DNA of 64,000 bases, taken from an uncultured Lentisphaeria bacterium (GTDB lineage: Bacteria; Verrucomicrobiota; Lentisphaeria; Victivallales; UBA1829). The notes under the pieces were generated by a model, which did not search any database, was not told the origin of the DNA, and was given only the letters and a program-made list of their open reading frames with translations. The stretch spans positions 1 through 64,000 of the forward strand of contig CASDPB010000035.1 in assembly GCA_949282305.1 (NCBI GenBank), read 5' to 3'. This document shows positions 58,495-64,000 of the stretch, one piece after another (positions within the stretch are counted from its first letter, which is position 1; each line of letters starts with the position of its first letter). The position numbers and the translations under genes were made by a program.

Positions 58495-59274
58495 ATGAAA
58501 AGTCTGCGCGCATTTGAGATTGTGGAGTATATCGAAGAACATAAGTTCTGTTCCTTGACGGAGCTTATGGAAAAATTCCATGTTTCGCAGGCGACGATTC
58601 ACCGTGACATCTCGGCGCTTGTCCGGGACGGCAGAATCCGCAAAGTCCACGGAGGCGTCGCTTCGCTTTCTTCCGCGCAGACTCCGCAGATTCCGGGCAA
58701 GGACATCATGCCGTCCCATTACCGCGAGCGGATGAACATCGACATGCCCGCCAAGGAGGCGATTGCGCGGAAAGCTCTCCGCGAAATCCGCGACGGCGAC
58801 ATTATTTTTCTGGACTCTTCCACGACGGTGTATTATCTGGCGCATCTGCTTCAGAAATCCTCTTTTGCGAATCTGACCATCATAACGAATTCCGTTCTGA
58901 TTATACAGGAGTTCACGAACTTTCCCGCAAATTATTTCCTTGTCGCCCTCGGCGGAAACTACGATCTTCAGCTCAATGCTTTTCTGGGGCAGGCCGCCAT
59001 GCGTGAACTGGAGCATCTGCAGATCGACAAATCCTTTATTTCCGGTGTCGGAATCACGGAGGCGGGCGTGTTTTCCCGTCATGAGAATCATACCTTTTTT
59101 CTCCGCCGGATGCTGGAGCTTTCCAAAATCAACTACCTGCTTCTGAATGGAACCAAGTTCGGGAAGGGCGGTCTTTATTCCATTGCGCCGCTGAGCATGT
59201 TCGACAAGGTGATTTCCGAACAGAGGCTCCCGGATTATGCCGAAACCGTCTGCTTCCGCAACGGGGGCCGCTGA
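58495..59274 (+). CDS. DeoR-family transcriptional regulator
   Basis: A protein of 259 residues. The N-terminal winged helix (CSLTELMEKFHVSQATIHRDISALVRDGRIRKVHGG) is typical of DeoR regulators. The C-terminal effector domain carries DGDIIFLDSSTTVYYLAHLL and the later ISGVGITEAGVF and LLLNGTKFG segments of the sugar-phosphate isomerase-like fold. It should respond to a phosphorylated sugar. No sugar-kinase operon is next to it; the divergent membrane protein is the only close candidate target. Ribosome-binding site is weak. Confidence 0.92.
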   Translation: MKSLRAFEIVEYIEEHKFCSLTELMEKFHVSQATIHRDISALVRDGRIRKVHGGVASLSSAQTPQIPGKDIMPSHYRERMNIDMPAKEAIARKALREIRDGDIIFLDSSTTVYYLAHLLQKSSFANLTIITNSVLIIQEFTNFPANYFLVALGGNYDLQLNAFLGQAAMRELEHLQIDKSFISGVGITEAGVFSRHENHTFFLRRMLELSKINYLLLNGTKFGKGGLYSIAPLSMFDKVISEQRLPDYAETVCFRNGGR

Positions 59275-59481: not shown

Positions 59482-59529
59482 ATTATGATGACATGTTATA
59501 GTTCAATAAATCTGATAGGATTGTGCAAT

Positions 59530-60159
59530 ATGTTTCAAAGAATATGGACCCCGGAAATGATTAAGGAATACATCATTTCCAGCAACGGGAAGGAGCCGTT
59601 GAATTCTCATTACTATTCAACGAATCATCCCAGTATTTATGCCGCTGCGGAACGAATCTTCGGGTCATGGGGAAATGCAATCAGCGCCGCAGGGCTGGAT
59701 TACAACGCGATCCGTAAATATAAAGTCTGGACCCGCATGAGGATTGTGCAGACGATCCGCAGAAAAAGCAGGGCGGGGGAACAGCTCTCCAGCCAGTATG
59801 CGCAGAATAATTTCAAGTCTCTGTACATGGCGGCGGTTCATCATTTCAAGTCATGGGGCAAAGCGATTCAGGCAGCCGGTCTGGACTATAGCAAAATCCG
59901 TATGCGCCGCAGCATGACGGAAGAGCAGATCCGTGCCGAGATCATTCGCCTTTACAAGAGCGGCGAAGATATGGCATACTCCAATATCCGTAAGAAACAT
60001 CAGTATCTGCTTGCCTACGGAATGAAGAAGCTGGGCGGGGGAAGCTGGGCGGAGGCGCGCCGTGCATGTGGGATTACGGAGAACTTCCGTCTGCCGAAGG
60101 AAAAGCGCCGTCCTTCCAGAATCAGAATGAAAAAATGCTGGCAGCCCGGATTGTTCTGA
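59530..60159 (+). CDS. Three-repeat HNR (homing endonuclease-associated repeat) protein without a nuclease domain
   Basis: A protein of 209 residues, ATG at 59530 with AGGA 8 nt upstream. It consists of three copies of a unit of about 53-54 residues at roughly 6-58, 67-120 and 129-182. Each has an aromatic or Thr start (WTPEMIKEYI, WTRMRIVQTI, MTEEQIRAEI), then a basic helix and a closing FGSWGNAISAAGLDY-like segment (SWGKAIQAAGLDY, SWAEARRACGI). This matches the DNA-binding repeats found next to homing endonucleases. The C-terminus is strongly basic. No HNH, GIY-YIG or LAGLIDADG domain is in the gene or its neighbours, so it is probably a stand-alone DNA-binding protein. Confidence 0.75.
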   Translation: MFQRIWTPEMIKEYIISSNGKEPLNSHYYSTNHPSIYAAAERIFGSWGNAISAAGLDYNAIRKYKVWTRMRIVQTIRRKSRAGEQLSSQYAQNNFKSLYMAAVHHFKSWGKAIQAAGLDYSKIRMRRSMTEEQIRAEIIRLYKSGEDMAYSNIRKKHQYLLAYGMKKLGGGSWAEARRACGITENFRLPKEKRRPSRIRMKKCWQPGLF

Positions 60160-60229: not shown

Positions 60230-60257
60230 TTGATTTTACGGCGGGACGGATTATTTT
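60230..60257 (+). promoter_or_regulatory. Promoter upstream of the riboswitch
   Basis: TTGATT (60230-60235), 16-bp spacer, TATTTT (60252-60257). Transcription would start about 18 nt before the aptamer. Confidence 0.45.
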
Positions 60258-60269
60258 ACCTGCAGAAAT

Positions 60270-60380
60270 TTGGAAATACCCCATGAGGGAGTAGTTAGCG
60301 TGCCTTCTGCACGCGGCAAGTCAACATACCGGCCCGTCAGGTCTGGCTTGCCTTAAATAATGAGACTCATGTATGACCGG
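60270..60380 (+). ncRNA. yybP-ykoY-type (Mn2+-sensing) riboswitch aptamer
   Basis: The 311-bp gap 60160-60470 holds a structured leader. CATGAG (60282-60287) pairs with CTCATG (60366-60371) as the closing stem; inside are GAGGGAGTAG, a GCGTGC-CTTCT-GCACGC hairpin (60298-60314), GGCAAG-TCAACATACCGGCC closing with CTTGCC, and ATGAGAC before the closing strand. GGGAGTAG, CAACATAC and ATGAGAC are the conserved features I know from the yybP-ykoY class, which senses Mn2+ and controls Mn exporters and P-type ATPases. The gene downstream is a P2A-type ATPase, which fits. Confidence 0.82.
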
Positions 60381-60411
60381 ATATTGGTTGTACAGAGTCT
60401 TTTTGCGTTTT

Positions 60412-60448
60412 AAGACCCGTGCCGCTGTCCGGTGGAAACGGGTCTTTT
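60412..60448 (+). terminator. Riboswitch expression-platform terminator
   Basis: AAGACCCGT and ACGGGTCTT form a perfect 9-bp stem with a 17-nt loop, followed by TTCCTTG. It lies between the aptamer and the ATPase ribosome-binding site, the position expected of a metal-controlled terminator. The T run is short. Confidence 0.65.
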
Positions 60449-60470
60449 CCTTGTACAAATCGGAGGTATG

Positions 60471-63116
60471 ATGAAAGAAGTTTTCATGGAGTCGCCGCAG
60501 GAGGTGCTGACGCGGCTGGGGGTGGATGGCGCGAACGGACTGAGTCCGGAACAGGCGGAGGAGAACAGGCGTCTTTACGGATGCAACGCATTTACCCGGA
60601 AAAAACCGGATTCTCTGCTGAAACGGATCTGGGAGGCTTCCTGCGAGCCGATGCTGATTATGCTGATTCTCGCCGCTGTAATCGCATTGGGTGTCAACAT
60701 TGCCCGTGCCTGTTCCGGCGGCGAGGCGAATTTTCTGGAGTGTCTGGGGATTTTTGCGGCGATCTTTCTTTCCGTGGTGATTACGGTTGTGATGGAGGGC
60801 AGGAGCGCCAAGGCGTTTGAGGCACTGAACAAGATCAATGAAGATACGAAGGTGAAGGCGCTTCGCGGCGGCGAGCTTCGGCTTGTGCCGCAGCGCGAGA
60901 TTGTCGTCGGAGACATCCTGTGCGTGGAGACCGGTGACAAGCTGCCCGCGGACGGGCGTCTGCTGTCCTGTGTGGAACTTCATGCGGACGAATCCTCCCT
61001 GACCGGTGAGAGTGTGCCTGTCGGCAAGGATGCGGAAGCCGTGTTCGAGTGTGCCGGCATTCCGCTGGCGGAGCGGCGCAATATGCTTTATTCCGGCACG
61101 TTCATCACCGCCGGGCATGGCAGAATGGTCGTTTCCGCTGTCGGCGACCGGACGGAATTCGGGCGGATTGCGGGAGAACTTGCCAGTGTGGAGAAGAGCG
61201 ATACGCCATTGCAGGAAAAGATGGCGAAACTCGGCAAGCGGATTACGCTTCTCGGTTCCTGTGCCGCCGCGCTTGTCTTTGCAATCCAGGTCATTACGTT
61301 CATTGCAAACGGGACCGCTTCACTGGATACGATTTCGGAGGCGTTCATCACCAGCATTGTGCTGATCGTCGCCGCCGTGCCGGAGGGGCTTCCGACCATT
61401 GTGGCTGTTTCTCTGGCAATCACGATCATCAAAATGTCCAGGCAGAATACGCTGGTTAAAAAGATGATCGCCTGTGAAACGATCGGCTGCATCAATGTGA
61501 TCTGTTCGGACAAGACCGGGACCTTGACGGAAAACCGGATGACTGTGACGGATGTTTATTCCGGCGGTGCATTTTTTCCGCCAGAGAAACTGAAAAATGA
61601 TTTTCTGGCGGAGAACTTCTGCGTCAACTCCACGGCGGAAGTGTATTTCCGGGAGAATGGCGCCCCCCGCTTCATCGGCAATCCGACGGAGTGTGCCCTG
61701 CTGACGGCGGCTCATAAGAGCGGAGTGGAGTATCAGGCGCGCCGTGCCGCCGCGGAACAGCTTTATGTCTTCCCTTTTTCCTCCGAGACCAAAAACATGA
61801 CGACCATTCTGAAAGGGAACGGCGGAGTCCGTGTCTACTCGAAGGGCAGTCCGGAAAAAATTCTTTCCATGTGCAGGACAACCGGACAGGAGAAAAATGC
61901 GGCGGAGACGGCGATCCGCGAATTCCAGAAAAAGGCGGGGCGTGTTCTTGCGTTTGCGCACCGCGATATGCGGGAACTTGACAACTATGCCTGCCGCAGA
62001 GATGAAATCGAACGGGAAATGATCTTCGACGGTTTTGCCGTGATCTCCGACCCGCTGCGCTTCGATGTGCCGGACGCCGTGGAACGATGCAGAAATGCCG
62101 GTATTGATCTGAAGATTCTGACCGGCGACAATATTGTGACGGCTTCCGCAATCGCATCCGAGCTGAATCTGCTGGATGATGCCCACATCGCGGCGGAAGC
62201 CGGTGAACTGGAGAATATGAATGACCGTGAATTTGCCGATGCCCTGTCGAGAGTCCGGGTGATTGCGCGCAGCACTCCGCTGGTCAAGATGCGCGTCGTC
62301 AACACCCTGAAGTCTCTTGGAAATGTCGTGGCCGTGACCGGCGACGGGATCAACGACGCGCCGGCAATCAAAAACGCGGACGTCGGCGTGGCGATGGGAA
62401 TTACCGGAACGGAAGTTTCAAAGGAAGCCGGCGATATTGTGCTGCTGGATGATTCTTTTTCGACGATTGTCCGGGCGGTGCAGTGGGGGCGCGGAATCTA
62501 TGAGAACTTCCAGCGTTTCATACAGTTCCAGCTGACGGTCAATCTTTCTTCGGTGGCGGTTGTCCTTGCCTCGATCCTGCTGGGGTTCAAGACGCCGTTC
62601 ACGGCACTTCAGCTGCTCTGGGTGAATATCATCATGGACGGACCGCCCGCACTGACTCTCGGGCTGGAGCCGATCCGCGACGACCTGATGAAGCGGCGGC
62701 CCGTCGCCCGGAATTCAAACATTGTCTCAAACGGGATGCTCTGGAATATTGCATTGAACGGCATTTTCATCGCTTTGGTGTTTCTTGCGCAGGAACGCTG
62801 GAATTTTCTCGGCGCGGCGCCGGAACAGAAAAGCACGGTTCTTTTCACGTTGTTTGTCGTGTTCCAGCTGTTCAACGCATTCAACAGCAGGGAGCTTTCC
62901 GATACAAGCATCTTCCTGAATCTGAGCAAGAATCATCTGATGCTCGGCGTTTTCGCCTTGACCTTCGGGCTGCAGGTGATTATCACGCAATGGGGAGGGG
63001 CGTTCTTCAATACACAGCCTCTTCCGCTGTCCGTATGGGCGGGAATTCTCGGCACGGGTTTTTCCGTGATTCTTTTTGCCGAACTTATCAAGGCAATACG
63101 CCGGATTGCAAGATGA
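60471..63116 (+). CDS. P2A-type cation-transporting ATPase (Ca2+/Mn2+)
   Basis: A protein of 881 residues. GGAGG lies 4 nt before the ATG at 60471 (60468 is too close). It moves a cation out of the cytoplasm using ATP. Signatures in order: ESSLTGESVPVGK, AAVPEGLPTIVAV in the fourth helix, the phosphorylation motif CSDKTGTLTENRM, KGSPEKIL, TGDGINDAPAIKNADVGVAMG, and WVNIIMDGPPALTLG with the N and D ligands of P2A calcium pumps. The upstream Mn2+-type riboswitch suggests that manganese, or calcium plus manganese, is the cargo. Lactococcus YoaB is a precedent for this pairing. Confidence 0.94.
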   Translation: MKEVFMESPQEVLTRLGVDGANGLSPEQAEENRRLYGCNAFTRKKPDSLLKRIWEASCEPMLIMLILAAVIALGVNIARACSGGEANFLECLGIFAAIFLSVVITVVMEGRSAKAFEALNKINEDTKVKALRGGELRLVPQREIVVGDILCVETGDKLPADGRLLSCVELHADESSLTGESVPVGKDAEAVFECAGIPLAERRNMLYSGTFITAGHGRMVVSAVGDRTEFGRIAGELASVEKSDTPLQEKMAKLGKRITLLGSCAAALVFAIQVITFIANGTASLDTISEAFITSIVLIVAAVPEGLPTIVAVSLAITIIKMSRQNTLVKKMIACETIGCINVICSDKTGTLTENRMTVTDVYSGGAFFPPEKLKNDFLAENFCVNSTAEVYFRENGAPRFIGNPTECALLTAAHKSGVEYQARRAAAEQLYVFPFSSETKNMTTILKGNGGVRVYSKGSPEKILSMCRTTGQEKNAAETAIREFQKKAGRVLAFAHRDMRELDNYACRRDEIEREMIFDGFAVISDPLRFDVPDAVERCRNAGIDLKILTGDNIVTASAIASELNLLDDAHIAAEAGELENMNDREFADALSRVRVIARSTPLVKMRVVNTLKSLGNVVAVTGDGINDAPAIKNADVGVAMGITGTEVSKEAGDIVLLDDSFSTIVRAVQWGRGIYENFQRFIQFQLTVNLSSVAVVLASILLGFKTPFTALQLLWVNIIMDGPPALTLGLEPIRDDLMKRRPVARNSNIVSNGMLWNIALNGIFIALVFLAQERWNFLGAAPEQKSTVLFTLFVVFQLFNAFNSRELSDTSIFLNLSKNHLMLGVFALTFGLQVIITQWGGAFFNTQPLPLSVWAGILGTGFSVILFAELIKAIRRIAR

Positions 63117-63175: not shown

Positions 63176-64000
63176 TCACTCCGGACGGCGGACCGCCAGC
63201 AGTTTCAGGACTTGTTTCGTATCGGATGTGACGGGGGCAAAGGCGGAGTTCCTGACGAAGGGAATCCAGAGGATTGTTCCGGAACCGTTCCTGACGACGG
63301 GCAGGAGATGTTTCCTTTCCGCCGGTATGGCGGCATTCGAAAACAGCTTCTTCAGCGTGACCGGACTCCTTTTCCCGAATGGAACCATGCGGTCGCCTGC
63401 CTTCCATGTTGAAACCGTCAGCATGCCGTCCAGTTCCGAGGCGTCGAAGAATGCGGCGCTTTTATCCGTTGTGAACAGCATTTCCTCCGGAGAGATGATC
63501 TCCGCCGTCAATACCGTCATCCCGTATTCCATGCGGGGGTCCTGCGGATAATTCCAGAAGACATCGCGCAGTTTCCGCGCCGGGGGCTTTTTCCCGCAGG
63601 TGACTTCCCCGGCTTTCACTGCAAGACGATACTCCTTGAGTCCGCCGATCGGAATGAGCCGGCGGCGGCCGGAGTCGGGCAAGGCGAGAGTCCTGGTAAA
63701 GCGTTCAATCAGCTTGGAGTCCGGGATGGTGTCATTGCCGGTTGTTTCTGTCAGAAAACGGCGGAGCACACGCGGCAGGAGCGCCGGCGGAAGCGCCCGC
63801 CATGCCGCCGCGGAGGAGGCGGAACGGAGCTCCCGGTATGCCTTGTCCGCCGACTCCTCCAGAAATGCCGAATCTTCGGTGAGGGTGCGGATGGATTGCA
63901 GGATTCCCGCTTCGGCAAACGGGAACTCCTTCCGGATTTCCGGCAGGAGTTCGTTCCGGATCAGGTTGCGTTTGTAGACGGAGGAATCATTAGTGGAATC
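63176..64000 (-). CDS. tilS: tRNA(Ile)-lysidine synthase, 5' end beyond window edge
   Basis: It attaches lysine to C34 of tRNA-Ile(CAU). The visible 274 residues are the C-terminal part. At the edge the frame reads DSTNDSSVYKRNLIRNELLPEIRKEFP, the conserved TilS segment (DxSNxxxxYxRNxIRxxllP). The end has the C-terminal TilS domain KAGDRMVPFGKRSPVTLKKLFSNAAIPAERKHLLPVV, then GTILWIPFVRNSAFAPV. The N-terminal ATP-binding (SGGxDS) domain lies outside the window. It is convergent with the cation ATPase. Confidence 0.92.
   Translation of the reverse strand, partial: DSTNDSSVYKRNLIRNELLPEIRKEFPFAEAGILQSIRTLTEDSAFLEESADKAYRELRSASSAAAWRALPPALLPRVLRRFLTETTGNDTIPDSKLIERFTRTLALPDSGRRRLIPIGGLKEYRLAVKAGEVTCGKKPPARKLRDVFWNYPQDPRMEYGMTVLTAEIISPEEMLFTTDKSAAFFDASELDGMLTVSTWKAGDRMVPFGKRSPVTLKKLFSNAAIPAERKHLLPVVRNGSGTILWIPFVRNSAFAPVTSDTKQVLKLLAVRRPE

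Follow-up and report, generated by a model that had tools for sequence, protein, structure and literature searches.

The question raised by this locus was how a P2-type cation-transporting ATPase of an uncultured Lentisphaeria bacterium is controlled, and which metal its leader RNA senses. The window, i.e. the whole stretch of 64,000 nucleotides that was analysed, had been described in a first-pass annotation as carrying a yybP-ykoY riboswitch ahead of a calcium-type pump. The reading that best accounts for the results, to which a probability of about 0.9 can be given, is a yybP-ykoY-type riboswitch that responds to Mn2+ as a transcriptional ON switch, is built on a three-way junction lacking helix P4, and controls a P2-type ATPase, most likely an exporter of Mn2+. 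The features of the locus and its flanking genes are collected in Table 1.

Table 1. Coordinates of the leader, the pump gene and the flanking genes in the window
Feature	Position	Strand	Description
DeoR-type regulator	58495–59274	+	upstream flank
Protein with homing-endonuclease-associated repeat (HNH_repeat, PF18780)	59485–60159	+	directly upstream of the riboswitch
Promoter-like TTGATT-16-TATTTT	60230–60235, 60252–60257	+	by eye; weak
Aptamer	60282–60371	+	~91-nt core, closed by P1.1
P1.1	60282–60287, 60366–60371	+	CATGAG with CTCATG
L1	60288–60294, 60361–60365	+	5' strand GGAGTAG; 3' strand TGAGA
P1.2	60295–60297, 60358–60360	+	5' strand TTA with TAA
P2 hairpin	60298–60314	+	GCGTGC-CTTCT-GCACGC; compensatory changes among relatives
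P3	60315–60352	+	P3.1 GGCAAGTCA/TGGCTTGCC; P3.2 GGCC/GGTC; covariation
L3	60324–60330	+	ACATACC, between P3.1 and P3.2
Linker TTAAA	60353–60357	+	occupies the place of P4, giving a three-way junction
Terminator T1	60364–60404	+	T tract 60400–60404; stem −18.3 kcal/mol
Possible antiterminator	60390–60422	+	T1 3' arm GTACAGAGTCTT (60390–60401) with T2 5' arm AAGACCCGTGC (60412–60422)
Terminator-like hairpin T2	60412–60450	+	AAGACCCGT.../...ACGGGTCTT, then TTCC; −20.5 kcal/mol; recurs in related leaders
Shine-Dalgarno GGAGG	60462–60466	+	read from sequence
P2-type cation-transporting ATPase	60471–63116	+	881 aa; YoaB/MgtA/LMCA1-like
TilS, C-terminal part	63176–64000	−	downstream flank

The leader motifs named in the first-pass annotation were recovered in the order it gave, with CAACATAC at 60322–60329 and TGAGAC at 60361–60366 lying between the CATGAG and GGAGTAG strands and the closing CTCATG. 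The fold that it had described as closed by CATGAG and CTCATG was borne out by the P1.1 pairing, and the predicted fold of the leader (60270–60450) was 7.6 standard deviations better than dinucleotide shuffles (z = −7.6). L1 and L3 showed full identity with the core that senses Mn2+, and the invariant adenine of this core was present. Solved structures revealed that Mn2+ is held by phosphates of L1 and L3 together with the N7 of one invariant adenine (PMC6754395), and comparison of the window L3, ACAUACC, with that of X. oryzae, ACA48UACU (PMC6754395), indicated that A60326 corresponds to the Mn2+-binding adenine. The junction of the leader has three helices, not four, with 5 nt, UUAAA, at the place of P4 in the canonical aptamer. 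No promoter was reported by a consensus promoter scan of the window; the promoter-like element resembles TTGACT-16-TATGTT at two related loci (L003 and L004). A leader peptide read from the AUG in P1.1/T1 was also considered and rejected, with an early stop in the window and a shifted frame in L004; in some relatives this frame runs open into the ATPase.

The check set by the first-pass annotation was a covariance-model search with the yybP-ykoY family. The family model RF00080 gave 15.8 bits on the window leader, below the gathering cut-off of 45 and over the P3 arm only, and 14.8–20.4 bits on its relatives. No match above the cut-off was obtained over the organism's own genome and 198 genomes of its class, and none of 12 sampled clostridial loci passed. 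Weak RF00080 matches in the class were set aside as noise lacking the L1/L3 motifs, except for the known leader in one genome (G037, locus L009). The low score can be attributed to the replacement of P4, which is present between P3.1 and P1.2 in solved yybP-ykoY aptamers (PMC11087558), by UUAAA in a three-helix junction. Taking such a score as a refutation, as the first-pass annotation proposed, is misleading because RF00080 does not recognise the P4-less subclass at the loci sampled, those ahead of MntP included. RF00080 riboswitches such as L. lactis yoaB, E. coli mntP/alx and X. oryzae yebN share L1, L3, P1.1, P1.2, P2, P3 and the P1.1/terminator switch with the window RNA, which differs from them in the absence of P4. 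The leader is very probably a Mn2+ riboswitch of a compact three-armed type, one that the standard model of the RNA database overlooks.

When the phylum was scanned for the pattern, this leader was recovered ahead of the same ATPase in two congeners, and in a sister genus ahead of that ATPase and also of MntP; within the window's family, the leader was found in only two genera. Compensatory changes were evident among these relatives, P1.2 reading UUA/UAA, UUG/CAA or UUU/AAA and P2 changing in step. A pattern scan of genome contigs produced at least 118 loci, mostly from Clostridia. As the clostridial loci were selected by exact L1 and L3 motifs, conservation of these motifs, including the GGAGTAG/TGAGA L1 identical in 81 clostridial leaders, belongs to the search pattern and does not count as evidence; covariation is not a search artefact, since only the L1 and L3 motifs were fixed. 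In an alignment of the 81 three-way-junction clostridial leaders, compensatory changes could be observed in 15 of the 19 predicted consensus pairs. Anchored pair counts were made on 61 leaders from Clostridia and the window's family, and many pairs exceeded every shuffle, with the shuffles ignoring relatedness and the invariant pairs being uninformative. The three P1.2 pairs were paired in 98, 84 and 84% of these leaders against 73, 47 and 62% when shuffled, and the second pair of P3.2 in 98% against 81%; the linker was TTAAA or TTAAT in 50 of the 61.

An independent covariance model was built from the 81 clostridial three-way-junction leaders alone, with their own RNAalifold structure and no sequence from the window's lineage. 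With this model, positions 60279–60374 of the window scored 90.8 bits (E about 1e-20), and the window leader was its sole match over the 4.36-Mb own genome. The same model scored four canonical four-way aptamers at 15–25 bits. The earlier assignment to a yybP-ykoY-type aptamer could be upheld by L1, L3, covariation and the 90.8-bit match. As judged from sequence, membership of the yybP-ykoY riboswitches in the wide sense is supported by L1, the L3 adenine, the sharing of a strand between P1.1 and the expression platform, and the Mn2+ homeostasis genes that follow leaders of this subclass.

Several further loci were recorded during the scans. A second three-way-junction match (50 bits) occurs at L043 3233–3332 (−), on the strand opposite to that of the first match (83 bits) in this contig. 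At L001 the motif pattern is present and the aptamer pairing absent, and the weak R1 matches L034–L036 were rejected, being without L1/L3. In another family of this phylum (f25; L155–L157 and L159–L164), the aptamer also stands ahead of the ATPase, with a natural L3 variant, ACAGUC, replacing ACAUAC and retaining the metal-binding adenine.

In the description given by reviews, S. pneumoniae mgtA has a three-way-junction yybP-ykoY RNA ahead of a Mn2+/Ca2+ P-type ATPase (PMC9495176, PMC11434433), and a further case is predicted for C. difficile CD2503 (PMC11477304). The window shares the three-way junction and the P-type ATPase with mgtA as so described, in a different phylum, and its P4-less, three-helix, ATPase-linked leader supports assignment to the mgtA type on that description. 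Because Streptococcus mgtA already provides a published Mn2+ riboswitch with a three-way junction ahead of a Mn2+/Ca2+ ATPase, the window switch is a variant of this published kind and not a new kind. New with this analysis are the three-way junction of this leader, the failure of RF00080 on the subclass, the apparent transfer of leader and pump as a cassette, and the second terminator, for which an antiterminator is possible. In Rfam, RF02617 (SSRC10, 'Streptococcus sRNA 10') is annotated as an sRNA, with the consensus GGGAGuag...CGUCaaUAC...CUgAAACAGCgaGaCc and a terminator; it matched a clostridial locus (L074 3815–3927, −) at 30.9 bits, below its cut-off of 56. By its consensus, RF02617 resembles a three-way-junction Mn2+ riboswitch with its terminator, and it probably represents the mgtA leader. 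If SSRC10 is the mgtA RNA, the L3 of mgtA (UCAAUAC in the SSRC10 consensus) differs from that of the window; the SSRC10 model has one terminator whereas the window has two.

Among the matches listed, the ORF downstream of the aptamer was MntP in 75 of 116 and a P2A ATPase in 12 of 116, and some of the remainder were UPF0016-like or exchanger-like, as named by eye from sequence motifs. At L037, L089, L112 and L141 (also L038 and L110), the aptamer precedes an ABC-transporter ATP-binding protein or another envelope protein; the ATP-binding proteins are LolD/MacB-like by eye and a possible new Mn2+ riboswitch target.

The cation ATPase ORF was confirmed to end where the first-pass annotation had placed its end, and its start was corrected, the best being the ATG given in Table 1. 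The P2A label proposed for this target also stood, from the domain architecture and the resemblance to PMR1 and LMCA1. The protein is a full-length P2-type cation ATPase, with the Pfam domains Cation_ATPase_N, E1-E2, Hydrolase and Cation_ATPase_C, representing the N, A, P and C-terminal parts, all above cut-off. The relatives in the PDB were LMCA1, SPCA1 and PMCA. The pump contains CSDKTGTLT and retains PEGLP in M4, N in M5, and N and D in M6. These M4–M6 residues presumably fit a one-metal-site pump, as we take it from SERCA and PMR1. In its full-length homology, DKTGT, PEGLP, M5 N and M6 N/D, the pump resembles LMCA1 (Listeria lmo0841), SPCA1 and the YoaB/MgtA-type P2A ATPases; unlike these, its best NCBIfam model, above cut-off, is the PMCA-type Ca2+ model TIGR01517. 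Export of Mn2+, possibly also of Ca2+, is the most likely function. A search of the own genome for MntP found none, so that, as far as MntP represents the exporters, the pump may be the main Mn2+ exporter of this genome.

The first-pass annotation had placed one terminator hairpin before the ATPase; T1 was confirmed as such, and two terminator-like hairpins, not one, were present. The 5' arm of T1 overlaps the 3' strand of P1.1, CUCAUG being common to both in mutually exclusive pairings, which agrees with the terminator-based control suggested earlier. In L. lactis, P1.1 is stabilised by Mn2+ and the terminator is thereby blocked (PMC11087558). An ON switch is predicted here because the P1.1 3' strand doubles as part of T1, and by analogy with L. 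lactis the window leader should act likewise. Without Mn2+, CUCAUG would leave P1.1 and enter T1, with T2 as a second stop ahead of the ribosome site. Binding of Mn2+ between L1 and L3 would stabilise P1.1, leaving T1 unable to close at its base, and the T1 3' arm freed in this way could pair with the T2 5' arm, so that the polymerase proceeds into the pump gene. In this serial arrangement, closure of P1.1 would release the T1 3' arm as the antiterminator of T2, and one binding event would gate two stops. We infer the direction of the response, the T2 antiterminator and the export of Mn2+ by the pump.

Of 21 ATPase leaders, which came from Clostridia, family f25 and the family of the window, 19 contained a further hairpin followed by a T tract downstream, its distance being similar in almost all of them; many MntP leaders contained one as well. 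The matched pairing of T1 3' arm with T2 5' arm was stronger than permuted pairings across 55 leaders (z = −7; 0 of 5000 as low). In MntP leaders this pairing was far stronger than the mirror pairing. In ATPase leaders the antiterminator reached p of about 0.04 with the mirror pairing equally strong, which means that T2 may simply duplicate T1 in these leaders; f25 was not significant. In a nascent-fold test, the T1/T2 antiterminator barely exceeded the swapped-T2 control. When the RNA downstream of a closed P1.1 was folded alone, the antiterminator was predicted at −21.6 kcal/mol until the T2 3' arm is made; once T2 is complete, a fold of T2 together with the upper part of the T1 stem (−26.3) is predicted to be favoured over the antiterminator. 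A serial two-terminator platform is likely in the MntP leaders and plausible in the window.

Mn2+ as the ligand, and induction by Mn2+, are what we infer from the conserved core and the associated genes, and other explanations of the leader were weighed against this. That the same fold is tuned chiefly to Ca2+, or jointly to both Ca2+ and Mn2+, and controls a Ca2+ pump appears unlikely. The closest solved pumps are indeed Ca2+ ATPases, the NCBIfam match is to a Ca2+ model, and the S. pneumoniae mgtA aptamer, as a review describes it, binds Ca2+ tighter than Mn2+ (PMC9495176); however, the same description has mgtA transcription activated more by Mn2+ than by Ca2+ (PMC9495176), the soft-ligand adenine is retained in the window, and among the matches listed the leader subclass stands mostly ahead of the Mn2+ exporter MntP. 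Drift of the aptamer to another transition metal, such as Cd2+, Co2+ or Ni2+, is far less probable still. Mn2+ riboswitches do bind Co2+, Cd2+ and Ni2+ in vitro (PMC11477304), but the L1 and L3 sequences agree with the consensus for Mn2+ sensing, the associated genes are Mn2+ exporters, and the pump is P2-type, not of the heavy-metal P1B type. The reading of the leader as a terminator region that resembles a riboswitch by chance, for which the RF00080 score below cut-off could be cited, is in effect already refuted by the fold z of −7.6, the 90.8-bit match to the independent model and the compensatory changes.

The Mn2+ riboswitch and its pump appear to share a history. The ATPase was 78–80% identical to those of its own genus and the sister genus, 60–66% to four clostridial riboswitch-linked ATPases and 54% to a fifth, 50–58% to the f25 ATPases (N-terminal half), and no more than 40% to those ATPases of its class that lack the riboswitch. 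In a phylogenetic tree, 21 of 22 riboswitch-linked ATPases formed one clade (100/99; midpoint root, limited sampling), the exception being L060 on a long branch. The window's group was placed beside [Clostridium] asparagiforme (98/97), and the pump nests among riboswitch-linked clostridial pumps. Together with the restriction of the leader to two genera of the family, these identities and the tree suggest that leader and pump were transferred together from Clostridia.

The broader proposal, that the window is part of a large subclass of Mn2+ riboswitches which lacks P4, is common among Clostridia and can switch two terminators serially, and that leader and pump move together between phyla, is put forward tentatively, at slightly less than even odds. 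The two-terminator platform offers a concrete and easily tested prediction, in which one ligand controls two stops, and the cassette appears to be an instance of a riboswitch that has moved between phyla along with the gene it controls. Annotation based on RF00080 overlooks P4-less RNA ahead of manganese exporters; a P4-less model would add to the manganese regulon known in Clostridia and in the lineage of the window.
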